NCBI GenBank assembly: GCA_002356435.2
Contig: AP018040.2
Span: 1,178,001 to 1,242,000 of the forward strand
Length of the DNA stretch: 64,000 nt
Reading direction: 5' to 3'
Origin: Petrimonas sp. IBARAKI
Lineage (GTDB): Bacteria > Bacteroidota > Bacteroidia > Bacteroidales > Dysgonomonadaceae
How positions within the stretch are numbered: position 1 is the stretch's first letter; every line of letters starts with the position of its first letter. Shown here one piece after another: positions 43,528-60,095 of the stretch. The notes under the pieces were generated by a model, which saw only the letters and a program-made list of their open reading frames with translations, did not search any database and was not told the origin of the DNA. The position numbers were made by a program, and so were the translations under genes.

Positions 43528-46500
43528 ATGAATAAATTAAATCTGTCAAGTAAAGGTTTAAGAGAAAAGAAATATTCAGAAAACATCATTTTTTTGATCA
43601 TTTTTTTTCTGTTTGTGCCTTTCTTTGGTTTAAAAGCCAGTTTAAACTTCAGTAACAAATCAATTACAAATGATTTGGACCCCGATGAAAATTTGAAGGA
43701 AATCCGAACTTATTCTCCTTCCGATAGAGTATCTTTAACAATCACTCAGCAGCAAAAAAAGAAAATTACAGGGACAATTACGGATGTTGAAGGAAATCCC
43801 ATTATTGGAGCAAATGTAATCGATGAAAGCGAGAAGGGGAACGGAACTGTAACAGATACGAACGGAAATTTCAGTCTGAATATAGCAGAAAATGCAGTTA
43901 TCCGGATTTCCTACATCGGCTACTTGGAACAAAAAATAAATACAACGGATAAAAATATCTTTATTATCATTTTACAAGAAGATACTAAAGCTTTGGATGA
44001 AGTTGTAGTGGTTGGGTATGGAACTCAAAAGAAAGTAAATTTAACGGGAGCAATTGCTTCAATGAGTTCAGAAGATTTGTCAAAAGTCCCGACACCCAAT
44101 GTCTCAACTCTCTTGTACGGACAATTGCCTGGTTTGATTACACTTCAGAGAAGCGGACAACCCGGCCTAGATAATGTAGCCTTATCGATACGTGGCTTCT
44201 CTAATGCTCTTGTAGTAGTTGACGGAGTTGTAGGCAGGGATTTCTCTCGATTAGATCCTACAGAGATTGAAAACATAACCATTCTGAAAGATGCAGCATC
44301 TTCTGCTGTTTATGGTGTAAGTGGCGGTAACGGGGTCATCCTTGTAACTACCAAAAAAGGAAATACTGGGAAACCCACGTTTAATTATACTATGAATTAT
44401 GGTGTTCAGCATGTGACTAAATATCCCCGATTTGTTACTTCAGCAGAATATGCAATTTTAAAAAATGAAGCGGCGATGAATTTAGGCGGAGAACCTGTTT
44501 ATTCAAAAGAAGAGATCGAAAAATATAGGTTAGGGACTGATCCTGATTATCCCAATTTTGATTACTACGACTATATGGTTAGAGACTATCCTCCTCAATT
44601 TCAACAAAACATTACAGTGAGAGGTGGAAGTGAATCGATAAAATATTTCTTCTTATTAGGGCAAACAAGTCAAGCTTCGATGTGGAAAGGAGGTAATCAA
44701 GATTACGCAAAATATAATTTTAGATCGAATGTTGATGCCCAGATTACAAATGATTTTGATGTGTCAGTAGAATTTGGAGCCAGAATTGAAGACCGTAACA
44801 ATTTGATTCAGGATTCTTACCTCATGGCTTCATGGTTGCAATACTCGTGGCCGATATTTACTCCAAAAAATCCCGATGGGACAATTGCTTCAACAAATTA
44901 CGGATTGACAGCTTATCTTGACAGAGATTTGACAGGGTACATCAAAAATAAACAAAACGTGTATGAAGGAGCCTTAACATTAAATTACAAAATACCCTTT
45001 GTGCCAGGATTGAGTGTTAATTTAAAAGCTGCTTTAGATATGTATTACCAAGACCAGAAACAATGGTTGAAGAAATATTATACTTATACGTGGAACAAGG
45101 AGACTCAAACCTCAACTAGAGTCGGATCTCGTGGTACAGATCAGCTTATATTGGATACATGGAGATCATCTTTTGCCCGCATAATTTCCTCGCTTAATTA
45201 TGAACGTACCTTTGCCGACGTTCATAACCTGAAGGGACTTTTATTATATGAAGTCAGCGAAGGAAATGCGACAAATTTTCAAGCATCAAGAATCAATTAT
45301 GTCGTTCCAATCGATCAAATTTTTGCGGGTCCTGATGCGGGTAAGAGTAATTGGGGAGGAGCATCGGATGACGGAAGAGAAAGTTATGTAGGACGTTTAA
45401 ATTATGATTTTTCAGGGAAATACTTATTCGAATACAGTTTTCGTTACGATGGATCTGCAAAGTTTCCGCCTAATAAAAGATGGGGGTTCTTTTCTGGAGT
45501 ATCTGCCGGTTGGAGAATTTCGGAGGAGGGTTTCATAAAAAATAATTTCAATAATTTGGACAATCTAAAACTTCGAGCATCGTGGGGTAATTTAGGAAGT
45601 GACAACACAGGTAATTTTCAATTTCTTTCAGGATATACTTATCCGTCTGGAAACTATATTTATGGAGGAAACACCATTAGTGGAATGATTGATACCGGAA
45701 CACCAAATCCCAATATTACGTGGGAAAGTAGTCAGATATACGATATAGGCCTAGATATAAGTTTATGGAATAGGCAGTTGGAAATTGAAACAGATGTTTT
45801 CTATCGAAAGCGAGAAGGTCTTTTAGCCAGGAGGACCACTCAACTGCCCAGTACGTTTGGAGCAACCTTACCGTACGAAAATCTTAATTCGGATGATGCT
45901 AGAGGTTTTGAAATATTTGTTGGACACAATTCCTCTATAGGTGAAATAAAGTATCGTATTACATCCAATCTGTCTTGGACAAGAATAAAAAACAAGCATT
46001 TAGAACAAAGAGATTTTAATAATCAATTTGATCAATGGAGAAATAATTCCGAAAACAGATGGAATAATCTTTATTGGGGGTACAAGGCCGTTGGACAGTT
46101 TCAGTCGATAGATGACATCCAAGCTTCTCCTATACAGGATAGTAGGGCGAATTCAACACTCCGCCCGGGAGATATCAAATATGAAGATTTCAACAAGGAC
46201 GGAATTGTTGACGGGAATGATATTCAGATTATAGGAAGAGGTCAAACACCTGAAATTACTTACGGTTTAGGGCTAATGGCTTCATGGAAAAGAATAACTT
46301 TTGACATGAATTGGCAAGGTGCTTCTCGTTCAAATATTCAACAGCAACATTTCCTTATTCAGCCGTTTGCCAATGGAATGAATGCTTATGCTTATTTTTT
46401 GGATAGATGGCACCGTGCAGATCCCTGGAATGCTGACTCAGAATGGATCCCCGGTAAATATCCTTCAACAATAAATGATGGAGCCCCTAATAACAAATGG

Positions 46501-46743
46501 AATTCATCATTCTGGTTGTTAAATGCTACCTATTTCAGATTGAAATTATTGAGTATTGGATACAGTCTTGAAAATAATCTTTTTAAAGAATGGGGAATAC
46601 AAAACCTGGTAGTTTCCTTTAGTGGACAAAACCTAATAACATTGTCTAAGTTAGGACCAATTGATCCTGAAACGCCTAGTGGTCGATTGTCATATTATCC
46701 ACAACAGAAAACATATAATATCGGATTAAATGTTACATTTTAA
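43528..46743 (+). CDS. SusC/RagA-type TonB-dependent outer-membrane transporter (3)
   Basis: 1071-residue outer-membrane importer. It carries a longer N-terminus than the other two: a hydrophobic signal (IIFLIIFFLFVPFFG, about 19-33) and then some 40 hydrophilic residues before the CarboxypepD-reg-like domain (KKITGTITDVEGNPIIGANV from about residue 77). Plug: DEVVVVGYGTQKKVNLTGA, GLITLQRSGQPGLDN, LVVVDGVVGRD and ITILKDAASSAVYGVSGGNGVILVTT. The barrel ends YNIGLNVTF. No STN or signal-transfer domain is visible in the extension, so sigma/anti-sigma signalling is not indicated. The susD start lies 13 bases after its stop. Confidence 0.94.
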   Translation: MNKLNLSSKGLREKKYSENIIFLIIFFLFVPFFGLKASLNFSNKSITNDLDPDENLKEIRTYSPSDRVSLTITQQQKKKITGTITDVEGNPIIGANVIDESEKGNGTVTDTNGNFSLNIAENAVIRISYIGYLEQKINTTDKNIFIIILQEDTKALDEVVVVGYGTQKKVNLTGAIASMSSEDLSKVPTPNVSTLLYGQLPGLITLQRSGQPGLDNVALSIRGFSNALVVVDGVVGRDFSRLDPTEIENITILKDAASSAVYGVSGGNGVILVTTKKGNTGKPTFNYTMNYGVQHVTKYPRFVTSAEYAILKNEAAMNLGGEPVYSKEEIEKYRLGTDPDYPNFDYYDYMVRDYPPQFQQNITVRGGSESIKYFFLLGQTSQASMWKGGNQDYAKYNFRSNVDAQITNDFDVSVEFGARIEDRNNLIQDSYLMASWLQYSWPIFTPKNPDGTIASTNYGLTAYLDRDLTGYIKNKQNVYEGALTLNYKIPFVPGLSVNLKAALDMYYQDQKQWLKKYYTYTWNKETQTSTRVGSRGTDQLILDTWRSSFARIISSLNYERTFADVHNLKGLLLYEVSEGNATNFQASRINYVVPIDQIFAGPDAGKSNWGGASDDGRESYVGRLNYDFSGKYLFEYSFRYDGSAKFPPNKRWGFFSGVSAGWRISEEGFIKNNFNNLDNLKLRASWGNLGSDNTGNFQFLSGYTYPSGNYIYGGNTISGMIDTGTPNPNITWESSQIYDIGLDISLWNRQLEIETDVFYRKREGLLARRTTQLPSTFGATLPYENLNSDDARGFEIFVGHNSSIGEIKYRITSNLSWTRIKNKHLEQRDFNNQFDQWRNNSENRWNNLYWGYKAVGQFQSIDDIQASPIQDSRANSTLRPGDIKYEDFNKDGIVDGNDIQIIGRGQTPEITYGLGLMASWKRITFDMNWQGASRSNIQQQHFLIQPFANGMNAYAYFLDRWHRADPWNADSEWIPGKYPSTINDGAPNNKWNSSFWLLNATYFRLKLLSIGYSLENNLFKEWGIQNLVVSFSGQNLITLSKLGPIDPETPSGRLSYYPQQKTYNIGLNVTF

Positions 46744-46756
46744 ACGGGAAGTTATT

Positions 46757-48520
46757 ATGAGTAATAAATATATTTATGTCTTACTGACACTGCTTTTTCT
46801 ATCAGGTTGTATCGAAAATACATTAGACAGAAAACCTTTAAACATGATTTCTGACGCTGATGTATGGACATCTGAACAATTGATTGATATTTACATGGTT
46901 TCCTTATACAATGCAATTCCTATTGGATTCACGGGTAATCCTCATCTCGCAAATTTAACAGATGAAGGTTCCTATCACGAAGAAAATCCACCGGTGAGTA
47001 ACTTTGGAAACCATCCCCATGTTTTAAACACTTCTATGTATGCATGGATAAGAAGAGCAAACTATTTTCTGGACAGAATACAAACTGCGACAATAACTGA
47101 AGAAAGAATAAAACAATATATTGCTGAATGCAAGTTTGTTCGGGCATATTATTATTTCGATCTGGTTAAAAAATATGGTGGGATGCCTATTATAACTGAA
47201 GTTCAGGTGTTTGATAATAATCTGGAAGAATTACAGGTTTCTCGAAATAAAGAAGAAGAAGTATACGACTTTATTCTCAATGAATTGGATGCGGCCATTG
47301 TTGATCTTCCTAATTCCTGGGATGCAGCAAATATGAACCGGGCCACAAAATTAGTTGCTCAGGCATTGAAATCTAGAGCTATGCTGTATGCAGGATCCAT
47401 CGCCAAATATGGAACTGTACAGTTGAATGGACTTATTGGCATTCCTTCTGATAAAGCCAATACTTATTTTTCAGAATCCATAAAAGCTTCCAAGGTTATA
47501 ATGGAAAGCTCTGTTTATGGTTTGTATGATAAATTATATAATCCAGCATCACAAAGTGGAAATCCGGTAACTAACTATCAGCAAATTTTTGTTGATAAGA
47601 ATAATGAAGAAGTTATTTTTCAAAAAGCATATTCATTTCCGGATAAAGTTCATAGTTTTGATAATTTAAATATTCCTGAAGGATTTACTACAAATAACGG
47701 AAGCTCAATTTGTCCGCTTCTTGAATTGGTCGAATCTTACGAATATGTTAATGGTACCCCAGGGGTTTTAATAGTTGATGGAAAGGAGTTTGATTCTCCT
47801 ACAGAGCTTTTTAAAGACAAGGATCCTCGGTTTGATGCGAGTATTTTTCGTTCGGAATCGCCATATATAGGAAGAGCTGTTCAAATATACAGAGGTATCT
47901 ATGATACCGACGGAACACTTTACGAAACAGAAAGTGTTCCCTTTCCCAAAGATCCAAACATGATACAAGTAGGTATGGACGGACCGTATCCTACAGGGAA
48001 TTATTCCAAAAGCGGTTTTTATATCAGGAAAATATTAAATCCGGACAGAGCTGTGGTGGAACCCAATTATTCTGATCAGAATTATATTGACATAAGATAT
48101 GCAGAGATACTGCTTAATTTTTCAGAAGCAGCATTAGAAACCGGAACCAACCTTTCCGAAGCTCTGGATGCTGTCAATCAGATTAGGGCACGTGCTGGCA
48201 TACGACAGTTATCATCAGATGAATTGACGATTGAGCGGTTGCGTAATGAGAGAAAAGTTGAATTAGCATTCGAAGATAAAAGATTCTGGGATATCAGGCG
48301 TTGGAGAATTGGTACTAGTTTATTTCAAAATACCTATATGCATGGCTTATATCCTTATTTGAAATATACCGGTTCCGGATACAAATACATATTTAAAAAG
48401 ATCAGCGGGTATCCTCTCGATGGAGGATTATCTAGAGTTTGGGAAGAAAGAGACTATTATAGTAATCTTTCCGGTTATATTTCTACAAACAAAAATATTA
48501 TTAACAATCCTGGATGGTAA
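46757..48520 (+). CDS. SusD/RagB-type surface glycan-binding lipoprotein (3)
   Basis: 587-residue outer-membrane lipoprotein, partner of SusC 3. Start at the ATG 46757, since a frame from 46730 runs inside susC. Lipobox LFLSGC, then IENTLDRKPLNMISDADVW. Helical repeat segments ECKFVRAYYYFDLVKKYGGMPI and AQALKSRAMLYAGSIAKYG. Conserved end: YIDIRYAEILLNFSEAAL, VNQIRARAGIRQL, RLRNERKVELAFEDKRFWDIRRWRIG. Closes with NIINNPGW. Standard arrangement. Confidence 0.94.
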   Translation: MSNKYIYVLLTLLFLSGCIENTLDRKPLNMISDADVWTSEQLIDIYMVSLYNAIPIGFTGNPHLANLTDEGSYHEENPPVSNFGNHPHVLNTSMYAWIRRANYFLDRIQTATITEERIKQYIAECKFVRAYYYFDLVKKYGGMPIITEVQVFDNNLEELQVSRNKEEEVYDFILNELDAAIVDLPNSWDAANMNRATKLVAQALKSRAMLYAGSIAKYGTVQLNGLIGIPSDKANTYFSESIKASKVIMESSVYGLYDKLYNPASQSGNPVTNYQQIFVDKNNEEVIFQKAYSFPDKVHSFDNLNIPEGFTTNNGSSICPLLELVESYEYVNGTPGVLIVDGKEFDSPTELFKDKDPRFDASIFRSESPYIGRAVQIYRGIYDTDGTLYETESVPFPKDPNMIQVGMDGPYPTGNYSKSGFYIRKILNPDRAVVEPNYSDQNYIDIRYAEILLNFSEAALETGTNLSEALDAVNQIRARAGIRQLSSDELTIERLRNERKVELAFEDKRFWDIRRWRIGTSLFQNTYMHGLYPYLKYTGSGYKYIFKKISGYPLDGGLSRVWEERDYYSNLSGYISTNKNIINNPGW

Positions 48521-48534
48521 TAAATATAACATAT

Positions 48535-49206
48535 ATGAAAATGAAAAAATTAATATATACTTTGTCCCTCTTCTTGATGCTCTATAGTTGTTCAATAGAT
48601 AATTATGATGCTCCAAACGCAGTATTATCCGGAAAAGTAATAGACAATGTAACTAATGAACCAGTGGAGAATGGTGGAGTAAACGGAGGTACTGTTATTC
48701 ATGTTTTAGAAGGTAATTCTAAACAGCCCATTATTTGCAATTCATTTCCAGATGGACGTTTTGTGAACGCTGCTTTTTTCAGCGGAGACTATAAAATTGT
48801 GGCTTTAGGTGCTTTTAAAATGGTGTCAGATACTATACATGTTTCTGTTTTGAATAATGCGGAAGTAGAGATTAAAGTACTGCCAAACGTTAGACTGAAT
48901 ACTTCAATTGTTAGTAGAGATGCTTCTACAATCACGGTTAAAGTAGAGTATGAAAAGGTCCATGAGAGTCAGGTGTTAAATGAATTGTGTGTAATTTGGA
49001 GTACTTATCCAAATCCGAATATGTTTACCTTTTCTGGAGGTGGCCAGAAAATCGAAAAAGTAGATTCACAGAATCTTTCTTCTGGAGAAAAAATCTTCGT
49101 GATTTCAGGATTAAATAATGGATTAAATTACTATATAAGAGCTGCTGCCCGCACAAATGCAGCGGGTAGTTACTATAATTATAGTAAACCAATTCAAACG
49201 CAATAA
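48535..49206 (+). CDS. DUF3823-type SusCD-associated lipoprotein
   Basis: 223-residue surface lipoprotein found behind SusCD pairs in Bacteroidota. Lipobox LMLYSC, then SIDNYDAPNAVLSGKVID, a DUF3823 opening that leads into a beta-sandwich (VTNEPVENGGVNGGTVIHV, with a carboxypeptidase-regulatory-like shape). A second beta domain (about 115-220) has VYEKVHESQ-like and YYIRAAARTNAAGSYY strands, similar to a fibronectin III fold. No catalytic motif; likely a surface glycan-binding or structural accessory. The ATG at 48535 is chosen over one inside susD at 48514. Confidence 0.78.
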   Translation: MKMKKLIYTLSLFLMLYSCSIDNYDAPNAVLSGKVIDNVTNEPVENGGVNGGTVIHVLEGNSKQPIICNSFPDGRFVNAAFFSGDYKIVALGAFKMVSDTIHVSVLNNAEVEIKVLPNVRLNTSIVSRDASTITVKVEYEKVHESQVLNELCVIWSTYPNPNMFTFSGGGQKIEKVDSQNLSSGEKIFVISGLNNGLNYYIRAAARTNAAGSYYNYSKPIQTQ

Positions 49207-49219
49207 ATATAATTTAAAA

Positions 49220-50572
49220 ATGGAAAATAAAATAAACCGTAGAAATTTTATTCGTACTAGTTCCATTGCCAGTGTAGGACTGGCAATGGGATTATCCAAT
49301 GTTAATTGTGCCAGTAATTCACAAATCAAAAAAGCAGCTATATTAGGTGGTCCGAAAGCATATACCGGCGATTGGTCTAAATGGCCGGTTATCGGACAGG
49401 CAGAACAGGATGAATTATTGAAAGTCTTGAATAGCGGAGGATGGTGCAGGTTAGGGAATAAAACGGCACCGAAGTTTGAAAGTGAATATCAAAAACAGAC
49501 GGAGGCAAAGAATGTACTGGCTGTTTCGAGCGGGACGAGCGCTTTATATACCATGTTGGGCGCTTTGGGCATCGGGCCGGGAGATGAAGTTATTATTCCG
49601 CCATATACTTTTATCGCTACTTATAATGCGGTAGTTTTGAATTATGCTCTCCCTGTTTTTGCGGATGTTGATATTGAAAGTTTCCAAATTGATGCCAATA
49701 AGATCGAATCAGCAATTTCGAATAATACCAAAGTTATTATGCCGGTACATATTGGAGGCTCTCCTTATGACGTGGATAAGGTACATAAAGTTGCAGAAAA
49801 GTATAGTGTTCCGGTAATCGAAGATGCCTGTCAGGCTCATATGGCAGAATGGAAAGGAAAATGTGTAGGGAATTGGGGACTTGGAGGCGCATTCAGCTTT
49901 CAAGCTTCCAAGAATCTTAATTCGGGAGAAGGGGGAGCGGTAATTACCAACGATGATACATTCTATCAGAATTGCTATAGTTTTCATCATCAAGGACAGG
50001 GTGCTGATGCGGCCAGCCTCGTACCGGGCTCAGGCATTAGGGGGGCCAATCTTCGAATCACCGAATTTCAGGCGGCAATTTTGCTTGCTCAGATGACACG
50101 GCTTGCAGATCAAGTGGAAAAAAGGTGGAAAAATGCTCAATATTTAACGAAAATGTTGAAGCAAATATCCGGAATAAAGCCGGCTGAATTGTATGATGGC
50201 GTTACTAAAAGCGCATATCACTTGTATATGTTCCGTTATGATAAAGAAAAATTTTCAGGAATGTCCAGGGAGCAATTTATAAATGCTTTAAATGCTGAAG
50301 GTGTGCCTTGTTCGACTGGATATACTTCCATGACACGGGAAAAATATATTACTGACTTAGCTCAAAATAAACACTATCTTAATGTTTACGGTGAAAAAAG
50401 AATGAAAGAATGGCTTGAAAGCCTTTCTTGTCCGCAAAACGACAAATTATGCGACGAGGAGGCTGTATGGTTTACTCAGACAATGCTTCTGGGAACTAAA
50501 ACAGACATGGAGCAGATTGTGGAAGCCATCAGAAAAATTGCCCGGTATTCAGCTGAGATATCCAAGATCTGA
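49220..50572 (+). CDS. Tat-exported DegT/DnrJ/EryC1/StrS aminotransferase (1)
   Basis: 450-residue PLP-dependent enzyme of the sugar-aminotransferase family, with an export signal. The ATG at 49220 gives NRRNFIRTS (RR at 7-8) plus a hydrophobic stretch, a Tat signal. The fold is complete: SSGTSALYTML (phosphate loop), IIPPYTFIAT, VFADVDIESFQID, EDACQAH with the pyridine-nitrogen Asp202, and FSFQASKNLNSGEGGA with the PLP Lys231. Normal members use UDP- or dTDP-ketosugars in the cytoplasm, so a periplasmic copy is unusual. Last gene of the SusCD-3 unit, 14 bases behind the DUF3823 gene. Two paralogues lie on the other strand at 55891 and 58722. Confidence 0.88.
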   Translation: MENKINRRNFIRTSSIASVGLAMGLSNVNCASNSQIKKAAILGGPKAYTGDWSKWPVIGQAEQDELLKVLNSGGWCRLGNKTAPKFESEYQKQTEAKNVLAVSSGTSALYTMLGALGIGPGDEVIIPPYTFIATYNAVVLNYALPVFADVDIESFQIDANKIESAISNNTKVIMPVHIGGSPYDVDKVHKVAEKYSVPVIEDACQAHMAEWKGKCVGNWGLGGAFSFQASKNLNSGEGGAVITNDDTFYQNCYSFHHQGQGADAASLVPGSGIRGANLRITEFQAAILLAQMTRLADQVEKRWKNAQYLTKMLKQISGIKPAELYDGVTKSAYHLYMFRYDKEKFSGMSREQFINALNAEGVPCSTGYTSMTREKYITDLAQNKHYLNVYGEKRMKEWLESLSCPQNDKLCDEEAVWFTQTMLLGTKTDMEQIVEAIRKIARYSAEISKI

Positions 50573-50598: not shown

Positions 50599-50643
50599 GC
50601 TGTATGGCAGAAGTAGTACATTCTGCCATACAGCTAACTTTTT
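50599..50643 (+). terminator. Terminator hairpin between two converging units
   Basis: GCTGTATGGCAGAA pairs perfectly with TTCTGCCATACAGC (14 bp, 8-base loop) and is followed on the + strand by TAACTTTTTT. It ends the aminotransferase unit from the left. The long unit from the right stops at 50643, so the hairpin can also block read-through from that side. Confidence 0.9.
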
Positions 50644-53048
50644 CATTTTAAATATTTGTCGATAAATCGGTACGCATCTTCCCTTATATCAGAGGGAAAA
50701 TCGTGACTTGCTTGAGGGTAAACGATTTTTAAATGATCCTCACTATCCAAAAAACGATAAACCTCCCTGACGTGACTGATGCCTTTTCTGACGCCTTCAA
50801 TAGAAAAATTGAGGTCAGATACAGGAGAATTTGAATAAAAAGGCCTGGGGGCAAGTGATGCAATGATTTCATCGAAATCAAAAGGGATTTTTTCAACATC
50901 CAGATTGTATTTATCCCTTATAAAGGGCATATATCGCTCTTGAGCCCACGGACCCAGACGGCCACCGTATCCGGCAGTTACTTGTTCACCGGGGTGGTAG
51001 TAGTCCATCAATGTCCATCCACAACTGGAGACGATTACTTTTATCCGGGGATCAAAGGCAGCAACAAACAGGGCATTATGACCACCCAGTGAGTGGCCTA
51101 TAACCCCAATTCTCTTCTTGTCAACGTAAGGCAGGCTTTGCAGTATATCGACACAAGAGATATGGTTGAAGATCCCTTTCATTGTTCCCGAATCATAGCG
51201 GTCATTAGCAAAGTCGTAATTTTCCAGCTCACCCATACTCGGATAGTCTGGTGAAATAACTACATATCCTCTTTCTGCAAGCTCCTTGGCGTAAGCCCTG
51301 TTTTTAATACTGGTAACGCCATCTATTATCTTCTTGCCTTCAATGCCGGTTCCGTGAAGAGCAAGCATAGCAGGAGATAACATCGATTTATTTTTTGGCC
51401 GGTAGAGATAGGCGAACACTTTTTCAGAGGGTGCTGCCTCAAAGTTGATACTATAACGTACATATTTTTCATACACAGCAGAGTCAGTATAGATCACATG
51501 CAATTTTTTCTTCTGCCGTGGCGGGACTTTTCCCATGACAAGTTGCATATTGTTTAGTACCTCCTCTCTTTTTTTCTCCCATTCTTTTTTATTTGTGACA
51601 GGAAAAATTTGACCGCTACGATCTTTGTAGGTCAACAACTCCCGGGGTTGGTTGGCTTTGTTTCGGTCTAAAAGCCGCTTAATCTTCGTCAGGATCAACT
51701 TTTCCGATTCTGCGGTTACAGGACTGGATTCAATCTCATACCCTCCTTCAGCGTAGGCTGCCTCCGTTCCGATATAAAATGGGCCGTAATCACCGTAAGC
51801 TGCCATCGCAACAAAATGATCCGGCGCCATCTTTTTGGCTGCCAGCTGATACTCCACAAAGAGTTCACCCGGCATAAAGAGCAAACGGGCGTTATGAATA
51901 CGCAAACAGGCGATTTCTATCCCCTTTCCTGCAACCCTCCTTTTATACCATCCCAAACGCCCCATATTGTTGGCAAGCAAACGGCTATCCATTTGATTCA
52001 TGGTCGTCTCTATCTCTTTGATTTTATCCCGATAGGGTAGCAACAGGTTTTCGGTATCCCAACCCAGATCTTCTGATTGAACACTGAACTTTTGGGTATT
52101 ATTCCACGCGCGCTCCATGCCGTCTGCCATTCTCTTTGCGAGGATGAAACGGGTTTCATGGCTGCCATCGTTATACTTTCCGGCTGCAACATTACCTCCA
52201 GCCCCGTTGAAATGAACATGCAAGGCATCCGGTACAGCCAATTGACGCAAAAAACGGGCAATACCGGGAAAATCAGGGTTGGTTGTTTTGGTCAGGTAGT
52301 AACTCTGCGGATGGGTTGCATAAAAACTCAATACAGCCAGCGGAGTATTCTCATTCCAGAAACTTACAAGCGACACATCCGGATCTATTAATCCCTCTGG
52401 CATGGAACGGAGGAGAGAATCCTTACTCGAAGAGCCACGCATCGTAACAATTCGTCCCTCTTTTTTGTAAACTCTTCTGTTTGAAGCTACCTGATGTATC
52501 TCCGCACTACCGATACCTATCTCTGTCACCTCCTTCACGTCTTTGAGTGATAAACGGATTGATGACTGAAGCCTTTGAATCAACTCCCTTGCAAAAGTGC
52601 CGTCAAAACAGCCTGCTGGAATGTTGTTTTCTTTTAAAATTTTTTCTGCAGTGAAATCACAGATGGGAGCATCGTGCTGATGAACTGTATGTACCACCAC
52701 CCGGTTAGGAATAGTACCCGCAGCTTCGGCCATGGCTTCCTTGAAGGCATCCTGTGACTCGTTAGCAATACCTATCCAGTCAACAGAACACAACACGATA
52801 GGATCACCTTCGCCAAATAAAACAATGCCCTTTGCCCTCAATGTTTGTTCTCCGGAGTTTATCATCGGATCGTAAGTGAGTCTGCTCCCTATAGGTGGAG
52901 TAGCATCCACATCAAAAGTAGCAATCCTTATTCCTCGTTTCTCCCGGGGATCAACATTTGAAGTCTTTGAAAATGTTGATCCCGCAATACAAAGAAGAAG
53001 AAAAACAAATTGCATTCTCATTACTTTCAGCCGTTTGTTGTTAATCAT
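50643..53048 (-). CDS. Neutral-ceramidase-like domain fused to an alpha/beta hydrolase
   Basis: 801-residue exported fusion protein. Signal sequence about 10-27. Domain 1 (about 38-470) resembles the N-terminal domain of neutral/alkaline ceramidases: FDVDATPPIG, VLCSVDWIG, VVVHTVHQHDAP (H123 and H125, metal motif) and FYATHPQSYY. Domain 2 (about 490-800) is a dienelactone-hydrolase-type esterase: LALHGTGIEGK, YVVISPDYPS, IGVIGHSLGGHNA with Ser653, SLAPRPFYSNSPVSD and QASHDFP with His782. Ceramidases cut amide bonds, so domain 1 may be an amidase for N-acyl groups on glycans. Last gene of the minus-strand unit, 61 bases after the propeller gene. Confidence 0.8.
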   Translation of the reverse strand: MINNKRLKVMRMQFVFLLLCIAGSTFSKTSNVDPREKRGIRIATFDVDATPPIGSRLTYDPMINSGEQTLRAKGIVLFGEGDPIVLCSVDWIGIANESQDAFKEAMAEAAGTIPNRVVVHTVHQHDAPICDFTAEKILKENNIPAGCFDGTFARELIQRLQSSIRLSLKDVKEVTEIGIGSAEIHQVASNRRVYKKEGRIVTMRGSSSKDSLLRSMPEGLIDPDVSLVSFWNENTPLAVLSFYATHPQSYYLTKTTNPDFPGIARFLRQLAVPDALHVHFNGAGGNVAAGKYNDGSHETRFILAKRMADGMERAWNNTQKFSVQSEDLGWDTENLLLPYRDKIKEIETTMNQMDSRLLANNMGRLGWYKRRVAGKGIEIACLRIHNARLLFMPGELFVEYQLAAKKMAPDHFVAMAAYGDYGPFYIGTEAAYAEGGYEIESSPVTAESEKLILTKIKRLLDRNKANQPRELLTYKDRSGQIFPVTNKKEWEKKREEVLNNMQLVMGKVPPRQKKKLHVIYTDSAVYEKYVRYSINFEAAPSEKVFAYLYRPKNKSMLSPAMLALHGTGIEGKKIIDGVTSIKNRAYAKELAERGYVVISPDYPSMGELENYDFANDRYDSGTMKGIFNHISCVDILQSLPYVDKKRIGVIGHSLGGHNALFVAAFDPRIKVIVSSCGWTLMDYYHPGEQVTAGYGGRLGPWAQERYMPFIRDKYNLDVEKIPFDFDEIIASLAPRPFYSNSPVSDLNFSIEGVRKGISHVREVYRFLDSEDHLKIVYPQASHDFPSDIREDAYRFIDKYLK

Positions 53049-53109: not shown

Positions 53110-54489
53110 TTATCGTTTTATATCGATTCTTACCAGGTCTTCAATGACTTTTCCGTTGTTTTCGAATCTGGCCAGTGTGTAAATGTCGTTTTGGCTCCCC
53201 ATTGCGATTGAGTTGACATAAGTAGGGAAAGAACCATCTTCATAAAAGACCGGTCCCAGGTCTTTGTATTTCTTTTCGGGAATATTGTATGTTACCACAT
53301 GCAGGTGTTCCAGGCCCTTAGCTGCACCCATGTTAATTTTATCAAGACCGGCAACTCTAACGCCATCCTTGTAGATAGGAGCTCCGGTAAGATAATAGAT
53401 AACGCCGTCTTTAATTTTGAATCCAAGATAACCATAGCTGAACTGGTCGGACATTCCACTTTTTCTGGACGGTTCCGAAGTAATTCTATCCACAATCTCC
53501 ACTTTCTTGTTAAGGGGATCAAAGGTGAAAAGATAACCGGAGTTGCCATGCACGCCGTATGCTTTATTTTCCGGTTCGTACCAGTATATTTTTCTCCAGT
53601 TATATCCCATACTGCCGGCATCACTGGCATCAAATTTCCCAAAATAATCGAGTCTCAAATCCACTCCATCCATTTTTTTCAGTTGAGGATCGGAAGGATG
53701 GTAATAATAGATGTCTCCTTCGGCAACAGAATAATAGACATTGCCATCCCTTGGATCTACGAACATAGAGCGGCAGAGCACCCTGTAGTCTTTCCCGATT
53801 ACACCGTTCTCTCCCTGTTCACTAACAAGGCCTAAATTGTTCATCTTGTTGGTATTGAGGTCGTAGTCGATAAAATATCCTTTAGGCCAGGTAATACCAT
53901 AAAGGTGTCCCCTCTCTTTGTCCATGGTCATGGTGAGAATCCCCTCTCCGTCGGGGGCAAGTCCGAGACTTACCAGTTTTTTTGTGCTCATGTCATAATA
54001 GAGAAAATGACCACCCGGGTAAAGCTTGTAGCCTTCCGGTGCATTTTTCGGCAAATGTTCCGCACCGTCAATCATTTCGTAGTAACCTACATGAGTTGAG
54101 AAGTACAGTTTATTGTCATGTTCGTAAAATTCGGTATGACTTTTTCCCTGCGCAATGTAGTTTTGTTCTTTCTCTCCCAATGCTTCAGATAGGTCGGCTA
54201 TAAACTCTGTTTTATCTAGCTGAGGATCATATGAATACATCTGACCGCCCACATCGTGACGAGTAGAGGAGAGGATATAGTAAATCTTTCCGTCGCTTGC
54301 TTCCGTAATTGCATTATAGGTATCGTGTGCATCCTCAAAACCTGAAAAATACCGTTTGGCAATCATTGTATCGGTTTGATTCCCAGAGGAAATTTCACTT
54401 AGATTTGCTTGCTTGTTTTGTTGAACGCATTGAGTAAAAAACAACGCTAGTAATAGTATAGCACTGTAAAACAAATAATTTTTCTTCAT
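53110..54489 (-). CDS. Lipoprotein with a predicted beta-propeller fold
   Basis: 459-residue lipoprotein (signal ends FFTQC). I do not recognise a named family. The body is a series of repeats with the pattern GK/GNxYY-x-x-x-GDIYYYHP or HLYGITWPKGYFIDYDLNT, spaced 45-60 residues, as in six- or seven-bladed propellers that bind sugars or act as lyases. Examples: DGKIYYILSSTR, NKLYFSTHVGYYEM, GHLYGITWPKG, GNVYYSVAEGDIYYY, NKAYGVHGNSGYLFTF and DGVIYYLTGAP. No catalytic motif is evident. Lies between two ceramidase-like genes and 29 bases from the upstream one, so likely linked to the same substrate. Confidence 0.7.
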   Translation of the reverse strand: MKKNYLFYSAILLLALFFTQCVQQNKQANLSEISSGNQTDTMIAKRYFSGFEDAHDTYNAITEASDGKIYYILSSTRHDVGGQMYSYDPQLDKTEFIADLSEALGEKEQNYIAQGKSHTEFYEHDNKLYFSTHVGYYEMIDGAEHLPKNAPEGYKLYPGGHFLYYDMSTKKLVSLGLAPDGEGILTMTMDKERGHLYGITWPKGYFIDYDLNTNKMNNLGLVSEQGENGVIGKDYRVLCRSMFVDPRDGNVYYSVAEGDIYYYHPSDPQLKKMDGVDLRLDYFGKFDASDAGSMGYNWRKIYWYEPENKAYGVHGNSGYLFTFDPLNKKVEIVDRITSEPSRKSGMSDQFSYGYLGFKIKDGVIYYLTGAPIYKDGVRVAGLDKINMGAAKGLEHLHVVTYNIPEKKYKDLGPVFYEDGSFPTYVNSIAMGSQNDIYTLARFENNGKVIEDLVRIDIKR

Positions 54490-54518: not shown

Positions 54519-55883
54519 TTATTTTGTTGTAATATTTTTTAATTCGCTAATAATCTTTGATTCTACTGATTTACTCCATTTGGAAGGTAAACCATAAACC
54601 CGTTGTGAGGTGTCACCCTCATATCCTCCCTCTTCGAGGATCACTTCGGAAGGTATATAACCCATAACATCGTTGGCATATGACATCACAAAAATCTGCT
54701 CCCCGTAAGTCTGTTTCAATTTCACGCTGTATGCAATCACAGATTCTCCTCCGAGAATAAACAGTTTCTGTTGGCCAATTTGCCAGTATCCAACAGGAAA
54801 CGGGTAAGATTTAATCAAATGGCCCTTAGTTTTCACTTCACTGATGATGCCATTAGCCCATCTGGCCTGATAATCACTACCTTTGGCTATAACTTGTAGT
54901 TCTTCTGTTGGAAGAGGGTCATCGATCAAAAGATCTATTTCGGAATACCTTGTGATCAGATTGCTCTCCTGCTGAGGCATCTCTTCAGAAAGAACCCGTT
55001 CGACAGTGGCAGCAAGTTGCTTGCCATACTGAATTGCCAGAGGAACGGTTCTTCGGGGAAGAGGATTCTGGTCAGCACCGGCGCCCTGAAAGAACATGGC
55101 TGTTACACCCGGATAGCGTTTCTCCAGTTCCAGCTGGGCAAACCCGGCATAATCTCCGGAGAACATATTGATGGACAATGTTGTAGGGTGGCAGGCATAA
55201 CCAAAAACTACAGCCAGTAATTGTTTGTCCGGTGATTCGATCTTAATGACCGGCACAGCATAATCGTTGGGGCCTTTCAGTTCAGTGGTAGGTGTAATGC
55301 TGTTTTCCCTGTTGTTACGCCTGTTCACCTGAAAGCGTGTAATACCGTTTTGCGTATAAATGTGCGCCGGTTGTAGATTTTTTATCGCCTGGTCAACCAA
55401 CTCAACCAGCTTCTCTTTCAGTTGTTCCGTATACTTGTCCACAACCTTCCAATCCTGCTCAGTCATTGGATAGATATACTGCAATGCGCGAGAGATGACA
55501 GGTCCGGAGTGTGTATGGGAACTGCTCAGAATTATCTGCGAATTGTTCAGGTTGTATTTACGGTTTATCAGATTTCTCACCTCATCCGAGAAATCCTTTG
55601 AAACACCCAGTATGTCCATCGTAATAAGCAAGGAACGATTGCCTCGTGCATCTTCCAGCAGGAGAGCCTTAGCCCATAAGTCATGCAATTTCCCTTCCGA
55701 CGGGGAAGTGCGACTGGAATAACCTGCCATCCATGTGGGTTCGTTTGGGGTAATCACGGTTCGTCCCGTGCCGATTTTCCAGGTATATTTTTCCTCGTTA
55801 TCATTCACAGCTTGCAACTGTAATATAAAAAACGACAGGAAAAATAGTTGTAATCCAATCCGTGTAATTATTTTCTTCATCAA
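54519..55883 (-). CDS. Neutral/alkaline ceramidase-like exported amidase
   Basis: 454-residue exported protein with signal peptide about 1-25. It shares the core of the neutral-ceramidase family: GTGRTVITPNEPTWMAGY, KALLLEDARGNRSLLITMDI, ILSSSHTHSGP (H123 and H125), GYACHPTTLSINMFSGDYAG and FFQGAGADQNPLPRR, where true ceramidases have the nucleophile Ser in a GDVSPN block. That block is different here, so classic ceramidase activity is uncertain. The family's C-terminal immunoglobulin-like domain is absent. 7-base gap to the DegT gene upstream. Confidence 0.82.
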   Translation of the reverse strand: MMKKIITRIGLQLFFLSFFILQLQAVNDNEEKYTWKIGTGRTVITPNEPTWMAGYSSRTSPSEGKLHDLWAKALLLEDARGNRSLLITMDILGVSKDFSDEVRNLINRKYNLNNSQIILSSSHTHSGPVISRALQYIYPMTEQDWKVVDKYTEQLKEKLVELVDQAIKNLQPAHIYTQNGITRFQVNRRNNRENSITPTTELKGPNDYAVPVIKIESPDKQLLAVVFGYACHPTTLSINMFSGDYAGFAQLELEKRYPGVTAMFFQGAGADQNPLPRRTVPLAIQYGKQLAATVERVLSEEMPQQESNLITRYSEIDLLIDDPLPTEELQVIAKGSDYQARWANGIISEVKTKGHLIKSYPFPVGYWQIGQQKLFILGGESVIAYSVKLKQTYGEQIFVMSYANDVMGYIPSEVILEEGGYEGDTSQRVYGLPSKWSKSVESKIISELKNITTK

Positions 55884-55890
55884 CGAGTGG

Positions 55891-57255
55891 TTATTTTGTT
55901 TTAGCTACTATAAGCTCTGCATGTTTTTGAATTTTCTCTATTGCTCCCGCAATTTTATCTAAGTCTGATTTTGAACTGAGAAGTAGACTCTGGGAAATCC
56001 ATACCGCTTCTTCATTACAAAGCTTCTCATTCAAAGGACATTTATTTGCTTGCGCATATTTTTCATAATTCAACCGTTCTGTTGGATAAAATTTCTGAAA
56101 ATATTTGCTCTCAAAAGCGTTTTTCAAATAAGGCATTTTGTTCAACTCACTATACCCGGCAGAACAAGGTATGCCTTCAGCCTGCAATGCTTTCAGGAAT
56201 TCAGCTCTCGATAATCCCTTGAAATATTCCTTGTGATATCTGAAGGGAAAAAGGTGGTATGCAGCTTTTGTTACATTTTTATATAACTTATAAGGGGATA
56301 TACCGGGTATATCACCGATGAGTGATTGGAGGTAGGTGGCATTTTTGTTTCTCAATTCAGTCTCAGCTTCAAGCCGTTTCAACTGTGCCAACCCAATTGC
56401 TGCCTGATACTCCGTGATACGAAGCTTGGTGCCGATCATCACAGTGCCGGCTCCAATTTGTCCTGCCGTGGTTCCGTGTGGATTGCCATAATTGTGATAG
56501 GAATAACAGCGATCCATAAACGCATCATCATCACTGATGATTGCGCCTCCTTCCCCCATTGCCATATTTTTGGAATTTTGGAAACTGAAACAACCTGCTT
56601 TTCCGAATGTTCCCACCTTCTTCCCGTTAATTTCGGCCAACCATGCCTGACATGCATCCTCCACGACCAACAGGTTGTGTTTTGCAGCAATTTTCATGAT
56701 TCTTTCCATATCACACGGGAGGCCGAGAATATGAACCGGAAGAATTGCCCGGGTGTGAGGTGTTATCTTCTCTTCAATCTTATTGGGGTCCATCTGGAAT
56801 GTTTCAGGATCTACATCCACGAATACAGGTATTGCGCCATTAAACAGAATACTGGATACAGAAGCAATAAAGGTATAGGGCGTAACCAACACTTCATCGC
56901 CCCAACCAATCTCCAACTGGGCAAGAGAAGTGTTCAATGCATTGGTTCCATTGACAACTGCCAGGCTGCGTTTAGCACCCAGCAACTGTGCCCATTTTTT
57001 TTCAAACTCGTCTGTAACCTTACTCCTCGACCAAACGCCGCTGCGCATGACCTCGAGAAGTTGCTTCTCATCGGTCGCAGGATTCCATATTGGCCATTTG
57101 GGCCATTGGCCTGTAAATGATTTCTCACCACCCAGAATAGCAGGTTTTATGTCAACTTTATTAAAAGCCCAGGCTTTTTGGTTACCAAAACCATTTAGTG
57201 TCATCAGGGAAGCGCTACCTATTACACTTTTTTTGAAAAATTTCCGTCTGTTCAT
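55891..57255 (-). CDS. Tat-exported DegT/DnrJ/EryC1/StrS aminotransferase (2)
   Basis: 454-residue PLP enzyme with a Tat signal NRRKFFKKS at residues 2-10. Complete sugar-aminotransferase core: VNGTNALNTSL, TPYTFIASV, VFVDVDPETFQMD, VVEDACQAW with Asp200, and FSFQNSKNMAMGEGGA with PLP Lys229. The distinctive middle DPNKIEEKITPHTRAILPVHILGLP matches the family. Coupled to a ceramidase-like gene only 7 bases downstream. Upstream is a 228-base gap that may hold its own leader; I see no good promoter in it. Confidence 0.88.
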   Translation of the reverse strand: MNRRKFFKKSVIGSASLMTLNGFGNQKAWAFNKVDIKPAILGGEKSFTGQWPKWPIWNPATDEKQLLEVMRSGVWSRSKVTDEFEKKWAQLLGAKRSLAVVNGTNALNTSLAQLEIGWGDEVLVTPYTFIASVSSILFNGAIPVFVDVDPETFQMDPNKIEEKITPHTRAILPVHILGLPCDMERIMKIAAKHNLLVVEDACQAWLAEINGKKVGTFGKAGCFSFQNSKNMAMGEGGAIISDDDAFMDRCYSYHNYGNPHGTTAGQIGAGTVMIGTKLRITEYQAAIGLAQLKRLEAETELRNKNATYLQSLIGDIPGISPYKLYKNVTKAAYHLFPFRYHKEYFKGLSRAEFLKALQAEGIPCSAGYSELNKMPYLKNAFESKYFQKFYPTERLNYEKYAQANKCPLNEKLCNEEAVWISQSLLLSSKSDLDKIAGAIEKIQKHAELIVAKTK

Positions 57256-57483: not shown

Positions 57484-58482
57484 TTACCAATCGGAAGGAA
57501 GTTCCAGAGACCAGACATCATTGCTTAACGGCGGGATCATTCCTCCGGCTATCCATATTTTATTTTGAAATACAAAAACAGCATGTTCGTGTCTTTCCTT
57601 CCATTTTGATCCTTCCGTTTTTAACTCTTTCCAGTCTTTACCATTTTTTGAATACCAAACATCATCCCAATTCTTATAAGGGTTTCCCGACCAACCTCCT
57701 ATCATCCACATATACCCTCCGTATACTACTGAAGAAAACCATATTCGTTCGTGCCATTGTGCATTTTCAGTCTCTTTTTGCCAATGAACACCATCCGAAC
57801 TGCTCCAAACGTCATTATAACCCCAATATTCCGGGTCATAGTTTCCTCCACCCATTACATAAATCCGATCATTTAATACGACAGCTTGATGAAAAGCTCT
57901 GGGTGACCATTCCGCATTTTTTGTTGCAAGTGTCCAATTTTTTCCATCATCCGAGCACCAAACATCATTCAAAAGACTATTTTTGTTACCATAATAATAG
58001 TCTGTAGTTCCTCCTAATATCCACAACTTGTTTTGAAAAGAAACTATTGCTGCGGCACATCGCGGAGTCCATTCTGCATTTTGGGTAACCAAATTCCAAT
58101 CTTTACCATCTTGAGAAGACCAAACCATATGGCTGGCCGATCGGTTTTCTAAGCGGCCATTGTACCAGCCTCCCATCATCCACATTTTACCTTTAAAAGA
58201 TATGCTCATAGGTAAATCACTGTGTATCCATGGAGCATTTCCAAATACAAGCTCCCAGTTCTTGCCGTCTTTCGATCGCCATACATCTCGGGGAGGAGCT
58301 TCGTATGAGTTATGCCACCCACCCAATATCCACATATATCCGTTATGTACAACTTCTCCCTGTGAATCTCTCGGTGACCACGCTGCCGTTTCCTGCTCTA
58401 ATGTCCATTTAAAAGTGTCCTGTGCGTTCACAATAAATGAGTGTAATAGAGAAAAGGAAAAAAGGATAATGCAAAATCTCAT
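57484..58482 (-). CDS. Exported kelch-type beta-propeller protein
   Basis: 332-residue exported protein. The start is taken at the ATG at 58482, since it begins the signal peptide MRFCIILFSFSLLHSFIVNA; a longer frame from 58536 adds no function. The mature part has about six kelch-like blades with the pattern DVW-S-x-DGKxW followed by NAEW-x-PR and WILGG (for example DVWCSDDGKNW, NDRIYVMGGG, DVWSSSDGVHW and YMWMIGGW). Glycan binding or a galactose-oxidase-like role is possible. No Cys-Tyr copper site is visible, so oxidase activity is unlikely. Confidence 0.82.
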   Translation of the reverse strand: MRFCIILFSFSLLHSFIVNAQDTFKWTLEQETAAWSPRDSQGEVVHNGYMWILGGWHNSYEAPPRDVWRSKDGKNWELVFGNAPWIHSDLPMSISFKGKMWMMGGWYNGRLENRSASHMVWSSQDGKDWNLVTQNAEWTPRCAAAIVSFQNKLWILGGTTDYYYGNKNSLLNDVWCSDDGKNWTLATKNAEWSPRAFHQAVVLNDRIYVMGGGNYDPEYWGYNDVWSSSDGVHWQKETENAQWHERIWFSSVVYGGYMWMIGGWSGNPYKNWDDVWYSKNGKDWKELKTEGSKWKERHEHAVFVFQNKIWIAGGMIPPLSNDVWSLELPSDW

Positions 58483-58520
58483 ACCCCGTTTCTGTAATGT
58501 ATTTGTGGTTGACAGAATAA

Positions 58521-58708
58521 TTACTGCTTCAGCCATGTGTTTTCGGCGAAGATATACTCCGGCGCATGCCAGGTTTTCAATACGGAAAAATCATTCAAAC
58601 GTATCCCCAAAATCTTGGTAGAATCTAACCGTCGATATATTTCCATTCAAACCGGGCATGCGACTATCTTGTATAGCCGGAGCAGACAACCTGTGTGCAA
58701 AATATTAC
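58521..58708 (-). pseudogene. Possible remnant of a coding sequence between the DegT and kelch genes
   Basis: Two minus-strand frames carry protein-like pieces: IQDSRMPGLNGNISTVRF with YQDFGDTF in one, and NDFSVLKTWHAPEYIF with AENTWLKQ ending at a TAA (58521) in the other. Together they look like the C-terminus of a lost exported enzyme joined by a frameshift. I cannot name the family. It fills most of a 239-base gap. Confidence 0.3.
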
Positions 58709-58721
58709 GCAGTTCTTGTAT

Positions 58722-60095
58722 TTATTTGAGTTTCGCAACGTTGTTATGGATTTTATCTACAGCGTTGATAATGTCGTCCATATCGGATTTCGTTCCGAGC
58801 ATGAGTCCGCCATTCCAAATCCAAAGTGCTGAACCGTAAGTTTTAATCAAGGAAGGACAGTGATTTTTTTGCTTATATTTTTCAAAATCCAATTCGTCTG
58901 CAGTGTAAACCTTTTGGTAAATTTCGGATTTGAATACCTCACGCATCATCGGCTGACCGTAAAGAGGATCGTTCGGATAACCGGTCCCTACCGGAACACC
59001 TTCGGCACTGAGCGCTTCGATAAACCGTTGACGCGGCAGTCCGTCAAGTTTGTCCTGGTTGTAAACCATGGAGTAAATGTAATAGGAAGCCGCTGTTGCA
59101 CCCTTGTGCAATTTGACCGGTGTGATACCGGGATAGGCAGCAAGTTTCTCATTCAGGTAAGCTCCGTTTTCGTTCCTGATTTTGTGTTGCTCTTCGAGTT
59201 TTTCCAACTGACACAATCCAATTACAGCCTGGTACTCAGCCATACGAATTTTGTTTGCCAGGATGAGCGCCGAAATAGAACTTATTTGCCCGGATACAGA
59301 CCCTGATGCGTAGCCGAAATTATGGTACGAATACAGCCGGTCAAAATATTCGGTGTCGTCAGTCAGGATTCCTCCTCCTTCGCCTATAGGAAGGTTTTTC
59401 GATGCCTGAAAGCTGAAGCAACCGGCATTACCGAATGTTCCGACTCTTTTACCTCCGATTTCTGCCAAGTGAGCCTGACAAGCGTCTTCCACAACGAACA
59501 GATTATGTTCCTTGGCAATCTTCATAATTTCTGGCATATCAGATGGATATCCGCAAATATGAACTGGTAAAATACCCTTGGTCCGAGGAGTAATTTTTTT
59601 CCTTATCTGTTTGGGATCAATCTGGAATGTCTCCGGATCAATGTCTGCAAAAACCGGCATAGCCCCTTTATAGAGGATGCCGAAAATTGAAGCGCTGAAG
59701 GTATAAGGGGAACAGATTACTTCGTCGCCAGGACCAATATTCGATTGCATCCATGCTGCACTCAAAGCGTTAGTACCATTAACCGTAGTGAGACAATGTT
59801 TCGACCCGTGCATTTCTGCCCACTTTTTTTCAAATTCAGCAACCTTGCGGCTCCGAGACCAAACCCGGTTACCCATCACTTCGTTCATTTTAGGATTGAA
59901 TTTTTCAGCATCCCATTGCGGCCAGGTCTGCCATTTCTTATTCCCCCGGACAGGGGTTCCACCGAGAAGGGCAAGCTTATCCGAAGTGTCCCGGGAATTT
60001 CCAAAAACGGGCGTAATGCCCGATACTGCTACCCCTGTTGTGGCGGCAGCTAATGTACCTATAAAGCGACGACGACTGATTTCATTACTTTTCAT
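58722..60095 (-). CDS. Tat-exported DegT/DnrJ/EryC1/StrS aminotransferase (3)
   Basis: 457-residue PLP enzyme with the Tat signal ISRRRFIGT (residues 6-14) and a hydrophobic core to residue 30. Core blocks: TVNGTNALSAAW, SPYTFSASIFG, VFADIDPETFQID, VVEDACQAH with Asp204, and FSFQASKNLPIGEGGG with PLP Lys233. Nearer to aminotransferase 2 than to 1 (shared DPETFQ, ITPRTKGILPVHI and VWSRSRKV-like parts). First gene of the unit and preceded by a leader of about 475 bases if transcription starts at the -7 box near 60577. Confidence 0.88.
   Translation of the reverse strand: MKSNEISRRRFIGTLAAATTGVAVSGITPVFGNSRDTSDKLALLGGTPVRGNKKWQTWPQWDAEKFNPKMNEVMGNRVWSRSRKVAEFEKKWAEMHGSKHCLTTVNGTNALSAAWMQSNIGPGDEVICSPYTFSASIFGILYKGAMPVFADIDPETFQIDPKQIRKKITPRTKGILPVHICGYPSDMPEIMKIAKEHNLFVVEDACQAHLAEIGGKRVGTFGNAGCFSFQASKNLPIGEGGGILTDDTEYFDRLYSYHNFGYASGSVSGQISSISALILANKIRMAEYQAVIGLCQLEKLEEQHKIRNENGAYLNEKLAAYPGITPVKLHKGATAASYYIYSMVYNQDKLDGLPRQRFIEALSAEGVPVGTGYPNDPLYGQPMMREVFKSEIYQKVYTADELDFEKYKQKNHCPSLIKTYGSALWIWNGGLMLGTKSDMDDIINAVDKIHNNVAKLK

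Follow-up and report, generated by a model that had tools for sequence, protein, structure and literature searches.

Neutral ceramidases carry a catalytic domain followed by a C-terminal domain, and their fold family removes N-acyl groups from amino alcohols. In CE15 glucuronoyl esterases an arginine directly after the catalytic serine binds the uronate, and in dienelactone hydrolases (DLH) the nucleophile is a catalytic cysteine. Here we describe a gene in which relatives of such enzymes are joined. It lies in a stretch of 64,000 nucleotides (the window) from Petrimonas sp. IBARAKI (GenBank assembly GCA_002356435.2, contig AP018040.2, positions 1,178,001 to 1,242,000), within a single-contig genome of 3.69 Mb (G000:C1:1178001-1242000), and encodes a predicted exported protein of 801 residues that fuses a ceramidase-like amidase domain to a serine esterase domain (50643-53048, minus strand). 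Both halves can be placed in known fold families, and each departs from its nearest characterised family in at least one defining test, namely the family model and C-terminal domain of the ceramidases and the arginine of CE15. The first-pass annotation of this DNA knew of no characterised enzyme with such a layout, and searches of open-access literature listed none. We favour, with confidence about evenly poised, a secreted two-headed deacylase, metal amidase and O-acyl esterase in one, for an acylated amino sugar that possibly comes from peptidoglycan.

Two described sugar pathways resemble parts of the surroundings. A 3-keto-glycoside pathway, the subject of a 2024 study, is said to involve the dehydrogenases BT_2158/BT_2159 and a PF06439 3-keto-disaccharide hydrolase. 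In Tannerella forsythia, murT, murK and murQ are utilisation genes for N-acetylmuramic acid (MurNAc) (PMC5790795). They reportedly stand in that order. Similarly, a major facilitator superfamily (MFS) transporter, a kinase and MurQ stand side by side just outside the window, in locus L019; unlike in the T. forsythia cluster, ceramidase-like, DegT and beta-propeller genes follow here, and the link between the fusion and MurNAc is a presumed one.

The fused gene and its two domains

The single open reading frame starts with ATG, contains no internal stop and has exactly the coordinates given in the first-pass annotation, with H123 and H125 (motif HQHDAP), S653 (GHSLGG) and H782 (ASHDFP) at the positions named there. 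In an AlphaFold2 model built from an alignment of 42 sequences (predicted local distance difference test [pLDDT] 81.6, predicted template modelling score 0.67), the chain breaks at residues 464-470 (51639-51659), where pLDDT is below 50; on this ground, and from the linkers of other fusions, we assign a flexible linker there. It separates a neutral-ceramidase-like catalytic domain (the N-domain; residues 35-463, 51660-52946) from an alpha/beta-hydrolase domain of the CE15/acetyl xylan esterase type (residues 471-801, 50646-51638). Residues 1 to approximately 27 (52968-53048; like the other parts, on the minus strand) read as a likely Sec signal peptide with an estimated cleavage site and no lipobox seen, and residues 1-32 have pLDDT values below 50. 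We infer that the protein is secreted via this signal peptide. In a PHROGs search with the fusion, an esterase/lipase family was the sole match.

The assignment of the N-domain rests on its predicted fold, on profile comparison and on residue conservation. Residues 39-471 of the model superimpose on the Pseudomonas aeruginosa neutral ceramidase 2zws (VIA-align 2, Z 30.9, 377 residues, 3.3 Å, 16% identity), and residues from about 38 to 471 match the human ceramidase 4wgk (Z 29.3). A profile of 13 N-domains aligned with one of nine stand-alone ceramidase-like proteins at an hhalign probability of 98.7 (E 4e-16, 358 columns); the stand-alone family profile in turn matched 2zws at E 4e-19, and the N-domain profile alone reached 2zws at E 0.25 only. 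The N-terminal half scored 14.8 bits against PF04734 (Ceramidase_alk), under the cut-off of 32.1, and the ceramidase equivalog NF041649 gave no report for the fusion at E 0.001. The ceramidase match stops at residue 494 of the 646-residue 2zws chain, and the remainder of the fusion matches esterases. The best named-record matches of the N-domain came from Proteiniphilum and other Bacteroidales, with records of the genome itself possibly excluded.

Residues H97, H99, H204, E411, Y448 and Y460 of the P. aeruginosa enzyme (2zws/2zxc) correspond in the alignments to H123, H125, H246, E395, Y425 and Y437 of the fusion. We take these six, together with R160, to be the zinc and catalytic residues of ceramidase. 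Taken alone, the stretches around E411, Y448 and Y460 have low scores (1.7 and 7.7 bits in the two alignments), but both routes agree on them. The R160 equivalent is uncertain by one residue, the 2zws route pointing to the second arginine of NRR and the NRS of human ceramidase to the first; we take it, less firmly, to be the first, R191, which never varies. The first-pass annotation had named H123 and H125 for the metal amidase fold. H123 aligns with the first histidine of the ceramidase HTH motif, a zinc ligand, and H125 with the second; the other zinc-ligand equivalents, H246, E395 and Y425, were unnamed there.

None of the seven positions varies across the 82 sequences compared, which comprise 80 loci found by pattern search, the window and a paralogue in the same genome. 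The conservation of H246 is partly by construction, because one of the two locus-finding patterns contains it, and that of the other six was not built in by the patterns. These counts leave out five esterase-only rows; an earlier count that included such rows gave 37/40 at H123, three of them having letters in those columns. In the loop GAGGNVAAGKYNDG, which we take not to be that of ceramidase, K291, Y292 and N293 occur in 37/37 rows, again partly by construction of the search. Judged by sequence and predicted model, the N-domain keeps the active-site residues for a metal amidase, and the loss of metal ligands that the first-pass annotation had named as counting against its proposal did not occur at either level.

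Among the structures listed in the fold search, the C-terminal half superimposes best on the CE15 esterase OtCE15A (6t0e; residues 472-801, VIA Z 28.1, 314 residues, 3.1 Å, 20% identity), with acetyl xylan esterases next (Z 18.9). Its best Pfam match was PF05448 (AXE1, the CE7 acetyl xylan esterase/cephalosporin C deacetylase family) at 37.6 bits over a cut-off of 21, although this family is structurally farther than CE15 and is here joined to an amidase; Abhydrolase_6, GCE_fung, Peptidase_S9 and others likewise exceeded their cut-offs. The domain had been described as dienelactone-hydrolase-like. It does pass PF01738 (DLH; 31.7 bits, cut-off 21), yet AXE1 scores better, the CE15 and AXE folds are nearer, and the nucleophile is Ser653 in 13/13 sequences. 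The whole triad S653-D745-H782 is identical in these 13 (8 fused, 5 stand-alone). The fusion shares the fold, the catalytic serine and histidine and the APRP region with CE15 enzymes such as OtCE15A and Phocaeicola 8q6s. However, the residue after the catalytic serine is Leu654 in 13/13, where the aligned 8q6s has arginine (R268 in OtCE15A, according to the title of structure 7b7h). Uronate recognition is unlikely because of this replacement, and a glucuronoyl esterase is disfavoured. By sequence and model, the esterase half keeps intact catalytic residues, in line with the metal-amidase fold joined to a serine hydrolase that was proposed at the outset.

Recurrence of the fusion and its context among relatives

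Full-length matches through both domains, at 65-100% identity, were present in 8 of 101 genomes of the family, the own genome included (G000, G826, G834, G829, G852, G874, G857 with two copies, and G848); they rule out an assembly artefact or read-through. A ninth family genome (G837) has a match truncated at residue 656, and 19/101 match the fusion at E 1e-15. Matches at E 1e-20 occurred in 4/395 phylum genomes and 4/393 order genomes, with the own genome among each, and no other full-length fusion was found in these two samples, for which two candidates were scored per genome.

G826 is of the same species as the own genome. It additionally holds a Tat-type (twin-arginine translocation) N-domain gene (L119:7278-8681) about 43 kb from its fusion, flanked by DegT, propeller, ceramidase-like and DegT genes, for which the matches listed for the own genome show no counterpart. 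In G834, labelled as another genus, the fusion is 100% identical to that of the window, so recent transfer, contamination or a binning error is possible; two more N-domain copies score there as in G826.

The survey of the fusion's distribution proposed by the first-pass annotation was extended to the N-domain itself, using the best 80 of at least 538 confirmed stretches, one genome per species, a set biased to close relatives. Eight of the 80 loci are fused, including Mariniphaga sediminis and three Cyclobacterium (L039 lies at a contig end). This count must not be added to that of the family genomes, since some genomes are probably shared. The matches in both sets rule out that the fusion is a one-off of the own genome. 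Four of the 72 unfused loci (L054, L057, L087, L098) carry a close esterase as a gene of its own, and in G162 the N-domain and esterase genes lie within 10 kb of each other. A close esterase (≥50% identity) was found in 11 of the 14 family genomes with an N-domain and in none of the other 87; nine of the 11 are due to the fusion (one cut at a contig end), and the comparison, with at most ten candidates per genome, is uncorrected for kinship. In a FastTree of the 82 N-domains, the smallest clade holding all fused members has 15 tips, nine of them fused (support 0.78), which would suit one origin of the fusion or two. The fusion recurs among related bacteria, and elsewhere its parts may be separate genes of one cluster.

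Gene context was counted by tblastn with the window proteins within 6 kb of the N-domain, for 33 loci classed by title as Bacteroidota and 47 others, mostly from Verrucomicrobiota, Planctomycetota and Hydrogenedentota; the 33 include neither L031 nor the own genome. Many loci are short, so that the counts are lower bounds. The Bacteroidota loci contained DegT in 17 cases, an esterase in 12 (8 fused), a propeller in 10, another ceramidase-like gene in 9 and SusC/SusD in 9, and more rarely Gfo/Idh/MocA (5), MurQ (2) and NagA/NagB (0). Of the genes typed, DegT was the closest one upstream in 12 of the 33, with gaps of 75-279 bp between tblastn hits. The 47 other loci contained DegT in 3, Gfo/Idh/MocA in 10 and another ceramidase-like gene in 1, and no esterase, propeller or MurQ was found there.

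Two long frames among these 47 (L097 and L099) were examined and neither held an esterase fusion. In L097, the 373 upstream codons have no Pfam match and look non-coding. The N-domain frame of L099 (7140-9542, Planctomycetota) has 801 aa with HEAT repeats in front, possibly a different fusion.

Individual loci connect the N-domain or the esterase to amino-sugar genes. MurQ directly follows the N-domain gene in L031, L057 and L058; L123 has a GH20-like gene, a stand-alone esterase and MurQ in a row; and homologues of the window's GH20-like protein (60687) adjoin stand-alone esterases in L121 and L123. L017 carries GH20 beside GH88 and heparinase-like genes, and L059 has NagA and NagB, further than 6 kb from the N-domain.

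Neighbouring genes in the window and own genome

The fusion is the last gene of a minus-strand run. Successive gaps of 61, 29 and 7 bp separate it from a propeller gene, the propeller gene from a stand-alone ceramidase-like gene and the latter from an aminotransferase gene, DegT B; given these short gaps the four probably form one operon. The propeller gene (53110-54489) encodes a putative lipoprotein and is a conserved partner by the locus counts. Its predicted model (pLDDT 77.3, pTM 0.82) matches streptogramin B lyase 2qc5, an eliminating enzyme, at VIA Z 26.6; since 2qc5 tops a broad tie among propellers, we claim no function for it. The stand-alone ceramidase-like protein (54519-55883, start TTG with ATG immediately next) carries the motif SSHTHSGP and matches 4wgk and 2zws by sequence. 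The first-pass annotation had pointed it out, and at 67.9 bits against PF04734 (cut-off 32.1) it is a clearer member than the fusion, scoring 33.6 against NF041649 (cut-off 1200). DegT B (55891-57255) is a Tat-type DegT/DnrJ aminotransferase (PF01041, E 4e-99) with an NRRKFF motif and a motif for the lysine that binds pyridoxal phosphate (PLP).

Further upstream on the same strand, after gaps of 228, 185, 591 and 16 bp, respectively, follow a Kelch-repeat protein (57484-58536, Pfam), a second Tat-type DegT/DnrJ aminotransferase, DegT C (58722-60095, Pfam), the GH20-like protein (60687-61754), which has a signal sequence and the motif HLGMDEE, and a Tat-type protein with no Pfam family above cut-off and homologues in L057 and L123 (61771-63897). 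The GH20-like protein weakly matches the beta-N-acetylhexosaminidase 8bal (E 4e-4) and has no Pfam match at E 0.1. On the plus strand stand a third Tat-type DegT/DnrJ aminotransferase recognised by sequence and Pfam, DegT A (49157-50572), which is convergent with the fusion, and a SusC/SusD-like outer-membrane pair recognised from sequence (43528-48520; members 43528-46743 and 46730-48520).

The closest solved sequences to DegT A and DegT C are scyllo-inositol and 2-deoxy-scyllo-inosose aminotransferases. Such enzymes act on non-nucleotide keto-cyclitols, and these relatives suggest that a free sugar or cyclitol would fit better than a nucleotide sugar. The own genome has 11 matches to PF01041, six at E <1e-90, and four of these six lie in a span of 24 kb that reaches from DegT A as far as the N-domain paralogue. 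Under uniform placement this has a probability of 2.7e-8, a value for a span picked after seeing the genes and one that tandem duplication would weaken.

To the right of the window, L019 continues with, in order, GDSL, kinase, MFS, MurQ, a third ceramidase-like gene, DegT, DeoR, the N-domain paralogue, a propeller and a Gfo protein. This MurQ lies 4.5 kb from an N-domain gene; it passes NF003915 (297 bits, cut-off 168) and stays below the equivalog TIGR00274 (244 against 302), and it is one of two in the genome, the other being stronger (375 bits). The kinase is assigned by PF01869 and lies far under the single NCBIfam equivalog reported (37 against 370). The third ceramidase-like protein (L019:4791-6725, 644 aa, SSHTHFAP) matches ceramidase only from residue 263; the part before has weak sub-cut-off matches to propeller/tectonin-like families and may represent another fusion or an insertion.

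At the left of the window, NagA (297 bits against a cut-off of 226) and a NagB-like gene (127 bits, short of its cut-off of 237) occupy 4558-6541, and LpxD (390-1427) is the only lipid A gene recognised among the genes typed. The plus-strand region 9495-32132 is of the 3-keto-glycoside type, with five Tat-type Gfo/Idh/MocA proteins and three PF06439 3-keto-disaccharide hydrolases. It is like the pathway described above in these genes, although they lie 18-41 kb from the fusion on the other strand, and two Gfo proteins tested score far under the cut-off of NF058561, the equivalog for the BT_2158 glycoside 3-dehydrogenase. Between these coordinates, 14384-16780 encodes 798 aa whose first half matches GCE_fung and whose second half matches AXE1/DLH, that is, two esterase domains in one protein, and a tblastn match to this protein precedes the fusion in three Cyclobacterium loci.

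Proposed function and rival explanations

Because both halves keep their active residues and the recognised neighbours are mostly enzymes of N-acetylhexosamine and muramic acid rather than of lipid, we propose an exported N-acyl/O-acyl deacylase for an amino sugar. The signal peptide would export the protein, and the N-domain would bind zinc through H123, H246, E395 and Y425 and hydrolyse an amide bond, that of an amino sugar's N-acyl (acetyl) group being the likeliest. The S653-D745-H782 domain would take off an acyl group held by an ester bond, probably O-acetyl, on that sugar or on its neighbour. The fusion may cooperate with the exported DegT aminotransferases, the beta-propeller proteins and the GH20-like protein, and the released sugars would enter the cell and reach MurQ, the sugar kinase, NagA and NagB. 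Peptidoglycan (as MurNAc or N-acetylglucosamine) appears to be the most likely single source, and glycosaminoglycan-like material ranks next. Computation shows both folds in predicted models, the conservation of the residues, the recurrence of the fusion and its gene setting; from these we infer the amidase and esterase activities, zinc binding, the substrate and the sequence in which the steps would occur.

Several observations weigh against this proposal. MurQ was within 6 kb in only two of the 33 Bacteroidota loci, so that muramic acid is no constant theme, and the 47 loci of other phyla, with no esterase or MurQ found within 6 kb, indicate that the N-domain works in other settings too. In the window, NagA and NagB are 44 kb from the fusion, and none of the 33 loci has them within 6 kb of the N-domain. 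The GH88 and heparinase-like genes beside GH20 in L017 suit a glycosaminoglycan too, and the ceramidase fold may hydrolyse other amides.

The least unlikely alternative is that the two domains act on different substrates within one degradative cluster, the fusion serving co-export and dosage; the short and flexible linker and the occurrence of the parts on separate contigs in G840 and G865 would suit this, against which the parts recur in one gene or cluster across several genera. It is unlikely, too, that the metal domain is a muramyl amidase that cuts the stem peptide from the lactyl group of MurNAc at their amide bond while the esterase clears blocking 6-O-acetyl groups. The cluster's MurQ, kinase and MFS transporter, and a MurQ adjoining the N-domain in three loci and the esterase in L123, speak for such an enzyme; however, most N-domain genes have no MurQ found nearby, the fold family is known to remove N-acyl groups from amino alcohols and is not known to cleave peptide amides, and the DegT genes would be superfluous. 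Somewhat more doubtful is a route in which the N-domain frees the amine of an extracytoplasmic amino-sugar glycoside, a Tat-exported DegT enzyme transaminates it to a keto sugar or eliminates with PLP, and cleavage of the 3-keto-glycoside type follows, for which the window also holds genes. The place of DegT as the closest typed gene upstream in 12/33 loci and the scyllo-type relatives of DegT A and C point to this route, and its presence within 6 kb in only 3/47 loci of other phyla argues against it. Such a route, if true, would amount to periplasmic PLP-dependent amino-sugar breakdown.

A true neutral ceramidase or other lipid amidase, cutting N-acyl chains from sphingolipids while the esterase removes fatty-acyl esters, is improbable. 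It would account for the fold and the active-site equivalents, but not for the low PF04734 score and the silence of NF041649, the esterase in place of ceramidase beyond 2zws residue 494, the loop with K291, Y292 and N293, apparently unlike that of ceramidase, or the sugar genes around the fusion. The lipid-linked glycan or lipid A that the first-pass annotation had also considered is not supported either, since LpxD, 49 kb off, is the only typed gene to point to lipid A or sphingolipid; as substrates we favour neither ceramide nor lipid A nor glucuronate esters. The amino-sugar setting suggested at the same time is borne out by MurQ, the GH20-like protein, NagA/NagB and DegT, with removal of N-acyl and O-acyl groups suggested by fold and context. 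Just as improbable as a lipid amidase is a generic carbohydrate de-O-acylase in which only the esterase half is catalytic in effect and the ceramidase-like half is for binding or structure: the esterase half does match carbohydrate-esterase families and folds, yet the seven N-domain active-site positions are identical in 82/82 sequences even though the fusion is missing from 72 of the 80 loci.

If the two-headed deacylase reading is true, a large branch of the ceramidase superfamily, with at least 538 stretches across Bacteroidota, Verrucomicrobiota, Planctomycetota and Hydrogenedentota, would remove acyl groups from sugars and would not be lipid-active; since the branch would act on sugars, 'ceramidase' annotations within it would mislead. 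The exported aminotransferases beside the fusion raise a further question. The fusion itself ties amidase and esterase to one pathway, so that the substrate can be sought with one protein.

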